The translations under genes were made by a program, and so were the position numbers. This document shows, one piece after another, positions 33,804 to 41,113 of a stretch of DNA of 64,000 nucleotides. Under the pieces are notes generated by a model. It saw only the letters and a program-made list of their open reading frames with translations. It was not told the origin of the DNA and ran no database searches. The DNA comes from Agarivorans albus (GTDB lineage: Bacteria > Pseudomonadota > Gammaproteobacteria > Enterobacterales > Celerinatantimonadaceae). Location: the NCBI RefSeq assembly GCF_019670105.1, contig NZ_AP023032.1:4472001-4536000 (forward strand). Direction: 5' to 3'. Position 1 is the first letter of the stretch. Each line of letters begins with the position of its first letter.

Positions 33804-35099
33804 TTAGTAGTTTTGACCAGAACATTGGCCAGTTTTGATGTTGAAGTTGCCACACTTAATTGGGGCAGTCCAATCAGCAACAATAGTGGCTGATTCAGTT
33901 AGGTGGTCTGTCCAAGCATCACCAATTACGCCGCCGCTTGTTTGCCATACAGTGTCGAATTGACCGTCAGCTTGAATCTCACCAATAAGCACTGGCTTAG
34001 TTAAGTGGTGGTTAGTGTTCATTACTGCGTAACCGCCAGTTAAGTTAGGAACAGTGATACCGTACATTGCGTCACGCACTGGATCGGTGTCTGTAGTACC
34101 CGCTTTTTCAACTGCTTCAGCCCACATTTGGAAACCAATGTAAGTTGCTTCCATTGGGTCGTTAGTTACGCGCTTGTCGTCGCCAGTGTAGGCTTTCCAA
34201 GCTGCAATAAACTCTTCGTTAGCTTCGCTGTCTGCGCTTTGGAAGTAGTTCCAAGCTGCTAAGTGACCCACTAGAGGAGCAGTATCAAAACCAGATAGCT
34301 CTTCTTCACCTACAGAGAAAGCAACTACTGGAATGTCTTCTGCCGAAATACCTTGGTTAGCTAGCTCTTTGTAGAAAGGAACGTTTGCGTCACCGTTAAT
34401 GGTAGAAACAACCGCTGTTTTCTTACCTGCACCACCAAATTTCTTCACATCAGAAACGATTGTTTGCCAATCAGAGTGACCAAATGGCGTGTAGTTAATC
34501 ATGATGTCGGCTTCAGCTACGCCTTTAGACTTAAGGTAAGCTTCTAAGATTTTGTTAGTTGTACGTGGGTATACGTAGTCGGTTCCGGCTAGTACCCAAC
34601 GTTCTACACCTTCTTCTTCCATTAGGTAATCAACCGCTGGAATCGCTTGCTGGTTTGGCGCAGCGCCAGTGTAGAATACGTTTTTAGAGCTTTCTTCACC
34701 TTCGTACTGAACTGGGTAGAAAAGCATACCGTTTAGCTCTTCAATTACAGGAAGTACTGATTTACGAGATACCGAAGTCCAACAACCGAAGATAACGTCT
34801 ACTTGCTCTTTATCTAGTAGCTCACGTGCTTTCTCGGCAAATAAAGGCCAGTTAGATGCTGGGTCAACCACTACAGGTTCTAGCTTCTTACCTAATAAAC
34901 CACCCTTTTTGTTTTGCTCTTCAATCATCATAAGCACTGTGTCTTTCAGTGTTGTTTCACTGATAGCCATGGTGCCTGATAACGAGTGCAATACGCCTAC
35001 TTTAATGGTTTCTGCGGCTTGGGCTGCATTCATTGAGAAGGCAAGTGCTACACCACTTGCAACCGTTGCGATCTTCTTCCATTTGCTATGTTGTGTCAT
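33804..35099 (-). CDS. urtA: Periplasmic urea-binding protein UrtA
   Basis: The 431-residue protein has a signal peptide (VALAFSMNAAQA-AE) and a Peripla_BP_5 fold starting KVGVLHSLSGTMAISE. The motifs PASNWPLFAEKARELLDKEQVDVIFGCWTS and YPVQYEGEESSKNVFYTGAAPNQQAIPAVDYL are typical of UrtA/AmiC-type binding proteins. It delivers urea to UrtBC. It is the first gene of urtABCDE, divergent from ureD across a 383-base regulatory gap with sigma-54 and NtrC-like sites. Length agrees with UrtA. Confidence 0.93.
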   Translation of the reverse strand: MTQHSKWKKIATVASGVALAFSMNAAQAAETIKVGVLHSLSGTMAISETTLKDTVLMMIEEQNKKGGLLGKKLEPVVVDPASNWPLFAEKARELLDKEQVDVIFGCWTSVSRKSVLPVIEELNGMLFYPVQYEGEESSKNVFYTGAAPNQQAIPAVDYLMEEEGVERWVLAGTDYVYPRTTNKILEAYLKSKGVAEADIMINYTPFGHSDWQTIVSDVKKFGGAGKKTAVVSTINGDANVPFYKELANQGISAEDIPVVAFSVGEEELSGFDTAPLVGHLAAWNYFQSADSEANEEFIAAWKAYTGDDKRVTNDPMEATYIGFQMWAEAVEKAGTTDTDPVRDAMYGITVPNLTGGYAVMNTNHHLTKPVLIGEIQADGQFDTVWQTSGGVIGDAWTDHLTESATIVADWTAPIKCGNFNIKTGQCSGQNY

Positions 35100-35482: not shown

Positions 35483-36367
35483 GTGAGTCAGCAAGAGCAA
35501 ACCGCATGCAGCAATTCGCACGCCCCCATTAAGCAAGGTTGGGTAGCCACCCTTGATTTGGGCTTTGCCCCTATCGCTAATAAAACTCGCTTAACCTTAA
35601 ACCAAAGCCAAGGCCCCTTGCGGGTACAACGCCCTTTTCACCCAGAGCTGGCTGCACCAGATTGTTGCCACGTGTATTTATTACACCCACCCGGCGGCTT
35701 GGTGGCGGGTGATCACCTGCTGATGAATGTGGAATGTTTGGCTGGCAGTAAAGTGGTACTTACTACCCCAGCATCAGGCAAATTGTATCGCTCTAACTTG
35801 GCACGCCAGCAGCAACGCCAAGAGCAGCGATTTCATTTACAAGACAACAGCAGCTTAGAGTGGCTGCCGCCAGAAACCATTGTATTTAATGGCGCGCAAG
35901 GCCGCTTAGACAGTCACTTCATGTTGCAAGGTAATGCTCAACTAATCGCTTGGGAAATTACTTGTTTAGGCCGCAAAGCCAGCGACGAAGACTTTGACCA
36001 CGGCGAGTTGATGCAATCCATCAAGGTGTATCGCGAACAGCGCCCATTGCTGATTGAGAATACTCGCATCGATAACGCCAATACTGCTGCTAACCCAGCA
36101 GCATTGGCTGGCAAACACGTATACGCCTGCATGCTAGCCACAGTAGATTTACTCAGCGAATTAGCCCAAAAGCAGTTATTAGAAGATTTACGCGAACAAC
36201 TAGCGTGTGCAGAGGTGGGCATCACATTAGTGCGCGGCCTTATCATTTTGCGCTATTTAGGGGACAACGCCGAACAAGTAAGGCAAGAGTTTGAAGCGGC
36301 TTGGGCGCTTATTCGCCCGGTTACGCTTGGTCACCCAGCGGTTCGCCCCCGAATTTGGAATACTTAA
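35483..36367 (+). CDS. ureD: Urease accessory protein UreD
   Basis: The 294-residue protein starts at GTG 6 bases after AAGGA. It contains the UreD family segments RPFHPELAAPDCCHVYLLHPPGGLVAGD (about 49-76) and LTTPASGKLYRSN (about 91-103), and DNSSLEWLPPETIVFNGAQ. UreD acts with UreF and UreG to load Ni2+ and CO2 into urease. It heads the ureDABCEFG-hupE operon, as in Klebsiella and many marine bacteria. A 20-base gap leads to ureA. Confidence 0.92.
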   Translation: MSQQEQTACSNSHAPIKQGWVATLDLGFAPIANKTRLTLNQSQGPLRVQRPFHPELAAPDCCHVYLLHPPGGLVAGDHLLMNVECLAGSKVVLTTPASGKLYRSNLARQQQRQEQRFHLQDNSSLEWLPPETIVFNGAQGRLDSHFMLQGNAQLIAWEITCLGRKASDEDFDHGELMQSIKVYREQRPLLIENTRIDNANTAANPAALAGKHVYACMLATVDLLSELAQKQLLEDLREQLACAEVGITLVRGLIILRYLGDNAEQVRQEFEAAWALIRPVTLGHPAVRPRIWNT

Positions 36368-36387
36368 TTTAATACTACGAGGCAGAC

Positions 36388-36690
36388 ATGGAATTAACCC
36401 CAAGAGAGAAAGACAAGTTATTGCTGTTCACCGCCTTTTTGGTCGCCGAGCGACGTAAAAACAAAGGGCTAAAACTTAACTACCCCGAAACCGTGGCTTA
36501 TCTCTCGGCCAGCATCGTAGAAGGCGCGCGCGAAGGGCGCAGTGTTGCCGAGCTAATGAGCTGGGGACGCACCTTGCTAAGCCGTGACGATGTAATGGAT
36601 GGCATTGCCGAAATGGTCCACGAAGTACAGGTGGAAGCCACCTTCCCCGATGGCACCAAACTGGTCACCGTGCATAACCCAATCCCTTAG
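36388..36690 (+). CDS. ureA: Urease gamma subunit UreA
   Basis: The 100-residue subunit matches the family length exactly. Start [23 protein letters not shown] and the motifs [13 protein letters not shown] and [20 protein letters not shown] are diagnostic. It forms the (UreABC)3 holoenzyme with UreB and UreC in the cytoplasm. The ribosome site is GAGGC, 5 bases upstream. Confidence 0.95.
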
Positions 36691-36712
36691 GCTACTTGTA
36701 GAGGAACAGCAA

Positions 36713-37036
36713 ATGATACCCGGAGAACTAATCATTGATGATGGTGACATTGAGCTAAACAAAGGTTTAGCCACTGTAACTGTAGATGTTGCCAACAGCG
36801 GCGATCGCCCAGTGCAAGTAGGCTCACATTACCACTTCGCCGAAACTAACCCCGCCCTGCATTTTGACCGTAAAGCCGCTTTAGGTTTTCGTCTTAATAT
36901 TGCCGCCGGCACCGCAGTACGTTTTGAGCCAGGCCAAAGCCGCCGCGTAGAACTGGTGGCCTTAAGTGGCAAGCGCGAGGTATACGGTTTTAGAGGGGAA
37001 GTAATGGGCAAACTAAGTGACGAGGAACAAGCATGA
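36713..37036 (+). CDS. ureB: Urease beta subunit UreB
   Basis: The ATG at 36713, with AGAGGAA upstream, gives 107 residues starting [18 protein letters not shown], as the family requires; an open frame reaching back to 36599 lies inside ureA and is not used. Motifs [19 protein letters not shown] and [17 protein letters not shown] are typical. The gene ends in ATGA overlap with ureC. Confidence 0.94.
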
Positions 37037-38739
37037 GCAAAATGGATAAACGCGCCTATGCCGAAATGTTTGGCCCAACCGTGGGTGACAAAGTACGCCT
37101 TGGCGATACCGAGCTAATCATTCAAGTAGAAAAAGACTACGCCCAATATGGCAGCGAAGTTAAATTTGGTGGTGGTAAAGTAATACGTGATGGCATGGGG
37201 CAAAGCCAAGCCAGCTGCGCCATGGTGCCAGATACCGTGATTACCAACGCCCTTATTTTGGATCACTGGGGTATTGTAAAGGCCGACATTGCACTTAAAG
37301 ACGGCCGTATTCAAGCCATAGGTAAAGCGGGTAATCCCGATATTCAAGACAACATTGATATCGAGGTTGGTGCAGGTACCGAGGTAATTGCAGGTGAAGG
37401 CCAAATTGTGACTGCTGGCGGGGTCGACTCACATATTCACTATATTTGCCCGCAGCAAATTGAAGAAGCCTTAATGTCGGGCACTACCACCATGTTAGGG
37501 GGTGGCACCGGACCCGCAACCGGAACCAATGCAACTACATGTACCCCTGGCGCCTTTCACTTAGGCAAAATGCTGCAGTCGGCAGATTGTTTCCCAATGA
37601 ACCTAGGCTTCTTGGGCAAGGGCAACGCCAGCTTACCGCGTCCCTTAGAAGAACAACTAATGGCCGGTGCCATGGGCTTAAAACTGCACGAAGATTGGGG
37701 TACCACTCCGATGTCTATCGACAACTGTTTAACCGTTGCCGAAAACTACGACGTACAAGTGGCCATTCATACCGACACCTTAAATGAATCAGGTTTTGTA
37801 GAAGATACTATCGCCGCCTTTAAAGGCCGAGTAATTCATACCTACCACACCGAAGGCGCAGGTGGCGGCCACGCACCCGATATTATTACTGCCTGTGGTT
37901 TAGATAATGTGTTGCCATCATCTACTAACCCAACTCGCCCCTACACCATTAATACCGTAGACGAGCACTTAGACATGCTAATGGTATGTCACCACCTTGA
38001 TCCGGCTATTCCTGAAGATGTTGCTTTTGCTGATTCGCGGATCCGTAAAGAAACCATCGCCGCCGAAGACATCTTGCACGATTTAGGCGCATTCTCGATG
38101 ATCGCCTCAGATTCGCAAGCCATGGGCCGAGTAGGCGAAGTGATTACCCGTACTTGGCAAACCGCCCACAAAATGAAAGTGCAGCGTGGTTTATTGCCAG
38201 AAGATAAAGAAATTGGCTGCGATAACTTCCGCGCCAAACGCTACATTGCCAAATACACCATTAACCCGGCCATAACCCATGGTATTGCCCATGAAGTAGG
38301 CTCGGTTGAAGTGGGTAAACTGGCAGATTTAGTATTGTGGAAGCCTGCCTTTTTTGGCGCTAAACCCTCGTTAATTATTAAAGGGGGCGCGATTGCAGCC
38401 GCACCTATGGGCGACCCTAATGCGTCGATCCCCACGCCACAACCGGTGCATTACCGCCCAATGTTTGGCGCTTACGGCAAGGCGATGAGCGAAACCCGCG
38501 TCACCTTTGTAAGCCAAGCGGCTTTAGATGCAAAAATTGATGAAACCCTAGGCCTAACTAGCCGCCTAGTGGCGTGTAAAAATACCCGCAGCATTAAAAA
38601 GCAAGACATGGTGCACAACCACTACCAACCGCATATGGAAGTGGATTCGCAAACCTATGAAGTGCGCGCCGATGGCCAATTGCTTGAATGTGAACCCGCT
38701 GCCGAGCTACCACTCGCTCAGCGTTACTTTTTATTTTAA
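37033..38739 (+). CDS. ureC: Urease alpha subunit UreC (catalytic)
   Basis: The 568-residue subunit carries the bi-nickel active site. Visible motifs are HIHYICPQQ (metal His pair), [12 protein letters not shown] with the Lys that becomes carbamylated (about residue 217), [16 protein letters not shown], and [16 protein letters not shown] with the active-site flap nearby (MVCHHLD). It hydrolyses urea to ammonia and carbamate. The length equals the usual 567-570. It overlaps ureB by 4 bases, and ureE follows after 11 bases. Confidence 0.96.
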
Positions 38740-38750
38740 GGAGAGAATGA

Positions 38751-39197
38751 ATGTTAAAGGTGTATCAAACCCTCCATCACTACCACGGCCCAGTGCATCA
38801 CCAAGTGGTTTTGAGTTACGAGTTACGTAAAAAAGCGCGTATTAAAGCGCAAACCGAAACCAAGCAAGATATCGGCTTTTTCTTAGAGCGTGGACAAGTG
38901 CTACAAAATGGCCAAATGCTAGAAGCCGATAATGGCGAAGTGGTTGAGATTAAAAGTGCCGACGAGTTGGTAACCACCGCCTATAGCGATGATCCACTAA
39001 TGTTCGCCAAGGTCTGCTACCACTTAGGTAACCGCCATACACCACTGCAAATTGGTGAAGGTTGGGTACGCTTTCAGCCAGACCATGTATTGCAAGACTT
39101 AGTAGAGCTTTATGGGCTACGAGTAGAACAGCACCAAGGTCCATTTGACCCAGAAACCGGTGCTTATCACAGCCACTTGCCAGGACATAGCCACTAA
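38751..39197 (+). CDS. ureE: Urease nickel metallochaperone UreE
   Basis: The 148-residue protein has the two-domain UreE plan: an N-terminal part with LSYELRKKARIKAQTETKQDIGFFLERGQVL, and a C-terminal metal-binding part with VCYHLGNRHTPLQI (interfacial His) and HQGPFDPETGAYHSHLPGHSH. The tail has four His but not the long poly-His of Klebsiella. UreE delivers Ni2+ to UreG and the apo-urease. GAGAG precedes the start, and its stop overlaps the next ATG (TAATG). Confidence 0.93.
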   Translation: MLKVYQTLHHYHGPVHHQVVLSYELRKKARIKAQTETKQDIGFFLERGQVLQNGQMLEADNGEVVEIKSADELVTTAYSDDPLMFAKVCYHLGNRHTPLQIGEGWVRFQPDHVLQDLVELYGLRVEQHQGPFDPETGAYHSHLPGHSH

Positions 39198-39865
39198 TGA
39201 CTAGCATGGCGCAACTTCAGCTAATGCGTTTGGTTAGCCCCAGCTTACCGGTAGGTGGTTTTGCTTATTCGCAAGGCTTGGAATACGCAATAGAAAACGG
39301 CTGGGTGAATAATCCTCAGCAGCTAAAAAGCTGGATTAGCGGTTGTTTAGAGGCAGGGCTAGCCTGCCTCGATATTCCGATGCTGGCGGCACTTTATCAA
39401 GCTTGCAAAGCGCAAGACTTTGCTAAGTTTGAGAGCCTAAATTTAGAACTTATTGCCAGCCGAGAAACCCTCGAGTTGGAGCTAGAAGATGTGCAAATGG
39501 GCAACGCCTTACGTACCTTGCTTAGCCAACTCGATGAGTCATTTACCGCATCGCTCAGCCAAGAATCGATGAGCTGGACAAGCATGTTTGCTTTGGCTGG
39601 TGTGCATTGGCAAGTAGCGCTTGATGAATTAGCCGACGGCTACCTATGGACTTGGTTAGAAAACCAATTGGCGGTAGCCGGTAAAACCCTACCGCTTGGG
39701 CAAACGGCCTGCCAAAAACTACTTAGCGAGTTACTGCCGCTGCTGCCACCAGCACGCGAGTCGGGCTTAACTTTACCTTTTGATCAAATAAGCGGGTCGT
39801 TACCAGCATTAAGCTTGGCTAGCGCCCTTCACGAAACCCAATATTGTCGGCTGTTTCGCTCTTAG
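39197..39865 (+). CDS. ureF: Urease accessory protein UreF
   Basis: The 222-residue, all-helical protein has the conserved opening LMRLVSPSLPVGGFAYSQGLEYAIENGWV (about 10-38) and a conserved C-terminal region. UreF couples UreG GTPase activity to nickel insertion in the UreDFG complex. It overlaps ureE by one base, and ureG begins 26 bases downstream. Confidence 0.92.
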   Translation: MTSMAQLQLMRLVSPSLPVGGFAYSQGLEYAIENGWVNNPQQLKSWISGCLEAGLACLDIPMLAALYQACKAQDFAKFESLNLELIASRETLELELEDVQMGNALRTLLSQLDESFTASLSQESMSWTSMFALAGVHWQVALDELADGYLWTWLENQLAVAGKTLPLGQTACQKLLSELLPLLPPARESGLTLPFDQISGSLPALSLASALHETQYCRLFRS

Positions 39866-39891
39866 CGTAGCCACAAAAAAGAGGAACCATA

Positions 39892-40526
39892 ATGAGCATA
39901 AAACAAACCTTACGTGTAGGTGTCGGCGGCCCGGTAGGCTCAGGCAAAACAGCCTTACTTACAGCGCTATGTCGCGAGCTAAAAGACCGTTTCAACCTAG
40001 CGGTTGTGACCAACGACATTTATACCAAAGAAGATGCCCAATTTTTGCTGCGCAATGACGCCCTCGCTGAAGACCGCATTTTGGGTGTAGAAACCGGCGG
40101 CTGCCCGCACACCGCCATTCGCGAAGATGCATCGATGAATTTAGCGGCGATTGCCGAGCTTAATCGCCGCCATCAAAGTTTAGATTTAGTGCTAGTAGAA
40201 AGCGGCGGCGATAATCTAAGTGCTACTTTTAGTCCCGAGTTAAGTGACTTAACCCTTTACGTAATCGACGTAAGTGCTGGTGACAAAATTCCCCGTAAAG
40301 GTGGCCCAGGCATTACTAAATCTGACTTATTGATCATCAATAAAACCGATTTAGCCCCACATGTTGGTGCCTCGCTAGAAGTCATGGATCGCGACGCTAA
40401 AAAATGCGCGGCGAACGCCCATTTGTATTTAGTAACCTTAAAACCAGCGAAGGCTTACAAACCATTATCAACTTTATTATTGAGCAAGGCATGCTAGAAG
40501 AATCTAGCCCTGCTACTCCCAACTAG
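39892..40526 (+). CDS. ureG: Urease accessory GTPase UreG, apparent frameshift near the 3' end
   Basis: The frame has the UreG GTPase motifs: P-loop [14 protein letters not shown] (about 10-23), [26 protein letters not shown] (metal-binding CPH), [15 protein letters not shown] and [10 protein letters not shown]. UreG supplies GTP hydrolysis for nickel insertion. After DAKK the reading frame breaks: it ends at 40497 with a 201-residue product and an odd tail. If the A6 run at 40399-40404 had one more A, it would read on as [24 protein letters not shown] to the TAG at 40524-40526, the normal ending, giving 211 residues. Possible causes are a sequencing error, a real mutation or slippage on the A run. 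The interval given covers the complete gene. Confidence 0.9.
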
Positions 40527-40549
40527 TTTTAAATTACAAGGAACCTACC

Positions 40550-41113
40550 ATGAAAAAACTACTTACTTTGGCTGCAGGCCTACTCATTAGCTTGCCCAGC
40601 TTTGCCCACGAAGGACACCACCATGGCTTAAGTGAAGGCTTGTTACATCCACTTACTGGTTTAGACCACCTAATTGCCTTAAGCCTAATTGGTTTATTAG
40701 CTAGCCAAACTGGCAAACTTAAGTTGAGCTTGGCGCAAAGTGTGTTTGCGTTGATTGTGGCAGCGGTTGTTGCCAGCATGGGTTTTGTACCACCAATGTT
40801 AGAGACAGGCTTGGCTATTTCTTTACTGGTTATGGCGGTATTAGTGGCTAAGGTATTGCCAAAAGCAGCTAGCCTAGCTGGTTTAGCAGTATGTTTAGTG
40901 GCAGCCTTACACGGCGCAGCCCATGGTAACGAAGTGCCTGCAGGCGCAGACATGAAGCTATTCTTTGCAGGCTTTATTGCTAGCTCAATTGCCCTTATTA
41001 GCGGCGGTTACTTACTAGGTAAAGCTGTGCAAAAGTCGACTTACGGCCAAAAAATCACACGTACTATTGCCGGTTTCGCTGGTGCCTTTGGTGTAACTGC
41101 ACTGGTTGCATAA
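40550..41113 (+). CDS. hupE: HupE/UreJ nickel transporter
   Basis: The 187-residue membrane protein has a signal-like start, then HEGHHHGLSEGLLHPLTGLDHLIA, which holds the HupE/UreJ metal motif HPxxGxDH (about 32-40). Six or so helices follow. HupE proteins admit Ni2+ or Co2+ across the inner membrane. Its place directly after ureG, 23 bases away, fits a nickel supply for urease in the absence of nikABCDE in the window. AAGGAA precedes the ATG. A hairpin lies just after the stop. Confidence 0.88.
   Translation: MKKLLTLAAGLLISLPSFAHEGHHHGLSEGLLHPLTGLDHLIALSLIGLLASQTGKLKLSLAQSVFALIVAAVVASMGFVPPMLETGLAISLLVMAVLVAKVLPKAASLAGLAVCLVAALHGAAHGNEVPAGADMKLFFAGFIASSIALISGGYLLGKAVQKSTYGQKITRTIAGFAGAFGVTALVA

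Follow-up and report, generated by a model that had tools for sequence, protein, structure and literature searches.

A one-base frame break in ureG within an otherwise intact urease cluster of Agarivorans albus

In the deposited genome of Agarivorans albus (a single contig of 4,792,255 bases, completeness 100, contamination 0.5), the gene for the urease accessory GTPase UreG loses its reading frame at a run of six adenines, and the remaining C-terminal coding sequence continues in the next frame. This raises the question of whether the strain has recently lost UreG by mutation, whether the deposited sequence is one base short, or whether full-length UreG is still made across the break. We addressed it by combining profile searches, alignments with relatives and a survey of the assembly around the locus. 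The window referred to below is the whole analysed stretch of 64,000 nucleotides.

The frame break and the cluster around it

The window holds a urease cluster, ureD-A-B-C-E-F-G-J, at 35483-41113, with urtA divergent from it. The features are given in window coordinates, and the reference for comparison is the nearest congener, G003 (96% identical).

33804..35099, - strand: urtA, binding protein of a urea ABC transporter, pointing away from the ure cluster (TIGR03407)
35483..36367, + strand: ureD, intact (PF01774)
36388..36690, + strand: ureA, urease gamma, intact (TIGR00193)
36704..37036, + strand: ureB, urease beta, intact (NF009682)
37033..38739, + strand: ureC, urease alpha, intact (TIGR01792)
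38751..39197, + strand: ureE, intact (NF009751, over its cut-off)
39197..39865, + strand: ureF, intact (PF01730)
39892..40497, + strand: ureG as frame 0 reads, UreG residues 1-171 plus 30 out-of-frame residues (TIGR00101 to profile position 180)
40399..40404, + strand: A6 run and frame break (one-base gap in the alignment with G003)
40404..40526, + strand: UreG C-terminal coding sequence in the next frame, with the normal stop (122/123 bases as in G003)
40550..41113, + strand: ureJ/hupE nickel permease-like gene, intact (PF04955)

An earlier note, made from the sequence of this stretch, had described ureG as broken by a one-base loss in the A6 run with its C-terminus intact in the next frame, and open reading frames, profile matches and the alignment with G003 all agree with this description. 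Read directly, the run lies at 40399-40404 on the + strand, within GACGCTAAAAAATGCGCGG. The frame 0 ORF that starts at 39892 stops at 40495-40497 after 201 aa, and its UreG sense is lost at the run: after DAKK the product continues with 30 residues unlike UreG. The unrelated tail had been seen before, at a length of 28 residues, which we correct to 30. The tail in the next frame is open from 40404 to 40526 and ends at the normal UreG stop (40524-40526), as had been proposed. In the own genome, the TIGR00101 profile finds two separate ureG pieces in different frames, the first (304.5 bits, about 305) ending at profile position 180 of 199, the second (26.8 bits) covering profile positions 165-196. 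The first score lies above the curated family cut-off (204.2), and in the ureG of the window the GTPase domain does not run whole to its C-terminus in one frame. Because the run in G003 is exactly one base longer and the 123-base tail matches that genome at 122 positions, the break is more than a chance arrangement. A split protein starting at ATG 40404 was considered and set aside, as no Shine-Dalgarno-like sequence was seen upstream by eye and frame 0 runs through.

All other ure genes had been reported to look intact, and the comparison bears this out: ureD, A, B, C, E, F and ureJ match their families and contain no internal stop or gap relative to G003. On the - strand at 37186-37468, antisense to the start of ureC, the window also matches Rfam RF02514 (5' ureB sRNA) with 100.8 bits (gathering score 40); this match may come from the conserved coding sequence of ureC and not from an RNA. 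Elsewhere in the genome (loci L131, L162:10393-12666 and L130) we observed two agarase-like genes (cf. PDB 4bq2, 5z6p) with a further PF02449 match near them, as well as one GH167-like protein whose end resembles a lectin. A GH50-like agarase in this genome resembles solved agarases, and the organism is probably an agar degrader.

The site in relatives

ureG was found in all genus genomes searched (7/7, own genome included). In the six congeners, G001-G006, UreG runs in one open frame to profile position 196 without a stop (6/6); these open frames come from a profile search independent of the alignment of the site, in which three rows of opposite orientation were read by eye as reverse complements. 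At the site itself, G003 and G005 carry A7, synonymous codons interrupt the A run in the other four, and none has A6. The earlier note had held that A7 in reads or relatives would make the break a sequencing error. This pattern is present in two of the six congeners, whereas the other four have different in-frame codons; since the congeners are other species, their A7 is no proof that the sequence of this strain is in error.

Across the order, 197 genomes were searched, and 55 had a ureG match over the family cut-off (56 rows). Nearly all of these rows (55/56) reach at least profile position 192, while the ureG of the window stops at 180. In two order relatives from another family, G032 and G072, the ureG matches are partial and stay under the cut-off, and one of the pieces contains an internal stop, so that ureG may have been lost or may be decaying elsewhere in the order too, independently in these two genomes. 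Among named ureG loci, we kept the best 80 of 588 confirmed ones, and none of these 80 has a frame shift at the site; one locus ends at a contig edge shortly after the site and one meets unknown bases after the tail. A distant-mode search further returned 91 plasmid records with a similar ureG (for the top-ranked one, 71.0% identity with 93% of the query covered), and a near-mode search of the phage collection returned none.

As the break occurs only in the own genome, it is a singleton and not a conserved recoding site. This bears on the possibility, also raised by the earlier note, that the break is real and full-length UreG is nevertheless made at a reduced level, because the RNA polymerase slips or the ribosome shifts frame on the A run. 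For such rescue, either the transcript would have to gain an A or the ribosome would have to make a -1 shift. The break does lie exactly in the A run with a clean tail behind it, and according to PMC1088944 slippage may, in some bacteria, extend to runs of fewer than nine. Nine is, however, the length at which the same source describes selection against runs in many genomes, and an A6 run falls below it. It is also below the threshold described for E. coli RNA polymerase, which shows no detectable slippage on runs of fewer than seven T's or eight A's (PMC6260861), although a threshold from E. coli may not be that of this host. By the E. coli threshold the run is too short for a gene corrected by poly-A slippage, and the break is not conserved (0/6 congeners broken); A7 is present in two of the six and the run is interrupted in four. 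A canonical -1 frameshift heptamer reads X XXY YYZ in phase; the frame 0 phase at the ureG run is GCT AAA AAA TGC, with T AAA AAA as the in-phase letters. Two stretches downstream of the run fold no better than shuffles (z 0.60 and -0.17), and the run thus has neither the in-phase heptamer nor the downstream stimulator of a programmed -1 frameshift. With run length, conservation, phase and folding all against them, slippage rescue and programmed frameshifting were set aside, and we regard rescue as very unlikely. The other two explanations offered with it, recent decay and assembly error, both stand.

A reversible switch between A7 and A6, with both run lengths coexisting and urea use being phase-variable, appears more improbable still: six or seven A's are short for a switching tract, and A7 occurs in only two of the six congeners.

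Recent mutation or residual consensus error

Differences from G003 in the ure genes are almost exclusively synonymous. Counted as synonymous and nonsynonymous, they amount to 62 and 1 in ureC, 32 and 2 in ureD, 31 and 7 in ureF, 29 and 3 in ureE, 12 and 3 in ureB, 6 and 0 in ureA, and 21 and 1 in ureG before the break; the ureG tail has a single difference in 123 bases, which is nonsynonymous. Judged from this strong constraint, any loss of ureG is recent. A break confined to the own genome, in a gene that is otherwise constrained, has the sequence features of a recent pseudogene or singleton frameshift.

The same observations are also what one would expect if the strain's ureG were intact and the deposited run one base short. 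Homopolymers are a usual place for sequencing errors, ureG is unbroken in the relatives examined, strong constraint acts on the rest of the cluster, and the downstream tail has only one difference from G003. A run of six or seven A's is, on the other hand, short for a polished assembly to miscall. To look at the quality of the assembly, we compared 444 kb of the own genome, a sample that contains the window and 5,000 N's, with 420 kb of G003; 308 kb aligned.

Of the 334 ORFs of at least 120 aa that G003 contains in this sample, 268 match the own sample at 70% identity or more. Most of these matches (256/268) are complete and uninterrupted, and ureG alone (1/268) appears as two pieces that lie in different frames. 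The remaining 11 comprise five whose in-frame stop is close to one end of the aligned stretch (in four of them within the first 29 aligned residues, in the fifth within the last three), three that begin 16 to 45 residues late, one that leaves the sample, one that ends at a masked stretch and one that matches 54/136 residues. With the two genomes exchanged, 258/270 are full length, six were marked because an in-frame stop lies close to one end, and G003 has one gene in split form. The converse of the ureG case was observed at locus L107 (near 4568213-4568307 of the own contig, G000:C1), where a 192-aa gene is open in the own genome and split in G003, with two small indels nearby.

Run lengths gave a similar picture. 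ORFs of at least 150 aa in G003 contain 224 runs of at least six bases, of which 163 are the same in the own genome, 59 differ by substitution and one has an adjacent nine-base insertion; the ureG run is the sole one of the 224 that is one base shorter. Outside ORFs, clean one-base run differences are symmetrical (9 shorter, 9 longer in the own genome), which indicates that the sampled assembly has no run-shortening bias. Inside ORFs of at least 120 aa, two runs are shorter, ureG being one of them, and one is longer. The longer run is found about 40 bases after the beginning of a 356-aa ORF, perhaps ahead of the true start. The second shorter run lies in a 139-aa ORF (L122, G000:C1 4322800-4323219). 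Here the own ORF reads through a hydrophobic stretch in one frame, whereas G003, with a run one base longer, has an ORF of 110 aa, and for this reason we take G003 to be the altered genome. The case falls below the ORF sizes of both the survey of matched ORFs and that of the 224 runs. In the aligned sample, 69 isolated indels were listed between the two genomes, mostly outside ORFs. The sampled assembly is thus not riddled with run-length errors, and a lone error is compatible with it.

Both readings draw on these data. For a real mutation speak the intact site in 6/6 congeners, in 55/56 order matches over the cut-off and in 80/80 of the best 80 of 588 named loci, together with an assembly that is otherwise clean. 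Against it, one event per about 300 kb aligned also fits a good but imperfect consensus. The GeneTack authors, as stated in PMC3711429, expect lone frameshifts with intact homologues to be mostly sequencing errors, the class to which this case belongs, and consider breaks near the 3' end to lean towards real mutation. We put the chance that the deposited run is in error somewhat below even. About even, in our assessment, is the chance of a recent contraction of the poly-A run by replication slippage, in this genome only, that inactivates UreG; here we infer both the presence of the change in the strain's DNA and the inactivity of the product. Either way, the case is an ordinary one, a recent mutation or a leftover sequencing error, and no new mechanism is needed.

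Consequences for urease and comparison with known systems

If the run was indeed shortened by one base through replication slippage, UreG would be cut after residue 171 and its last 40 residues would be replaced, including the guanine contacts around the G5 motif; the last part of the UreG fold would presumably be lost too. In H. pylori UreG, the guanine is contacted by Ile-178 and Arg-179, according to PMC3792862. Query residue 170 pairs with residue 165 of the H. pylori protein in the alignment, which places the equivalents of these two residues beyond the break. Since the break comes after the P-loop, the CPH metal motif, ESGGDNL and NKTD, one could imagine that the truncated protein with its new 30-residue tail is itself functional. 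Given that the guanine-contacting residues are lost and that the sequence past the site is kept in 55/56 order matches and in the best 80 of 588 named loci, we consider the chance of this negligible, and a dead product is likely.

A second ureG or a HypB that might compensate was also considered and set aside: in the own genome, the UreG profile matched only the two pieces of the window gene and no second UreG- or HypB-like sequence, and it does match HypB-containing control genomes, e.g. E. coli. With the guanine contacts gone and no second match of this kind, urease would probably be inactive if the sequence is right. Urease activation in vitro requires GTP hydrolysis by UreG, as described in PMC3792862. 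The truncated GTPase would probably fail to deliver nickel, and the apo-urease would stay inactive while the other ure genes are still clean. If the loss is real, a single base in a maturation gene would make urease-negative a marine bacterium that has agarase-like genes, a gene for a urea transporter and an otherwise complete urease cluster, and its use of urea would be misjudged by annotation from gene presence. An error would instead amount to a small correction to one record.

No report of the case appears in the titles and abstract beginnings of the papers listed for ureG, frameshift and urease. The gene itself resembles the known urease accessory GTPase (TIGR00101) in that the piece before the break scores far over the cut-off and aligns with the solved UreG proteins PDB 4hi0 chain E and 5xkt (query 7-170 and 4-169, respectively); it differs in that its frame breaks before the C-terminus and the true C-terminus lies in another frame. 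Poly-A frameshifts with possible transcriptional correction are described for Blochmannia in PMC3017870, and share with ureG the one-base change in an A run of an otherwise intact gene. Those, however, concern AT-rich endosymbionts with numerous long tracts (at least 9 bases), compared to six bases, a 4.8 Mb genome and one case in the sample here. A sporadic and recent hit in a ure cluster is likewise described for Klebsiella pneumoniae in PMC8269217, where the insertion element IS5075 lies in ureC and a urease-negative phenotype was shown, whereas the change in A. albus is a single base in ureG.
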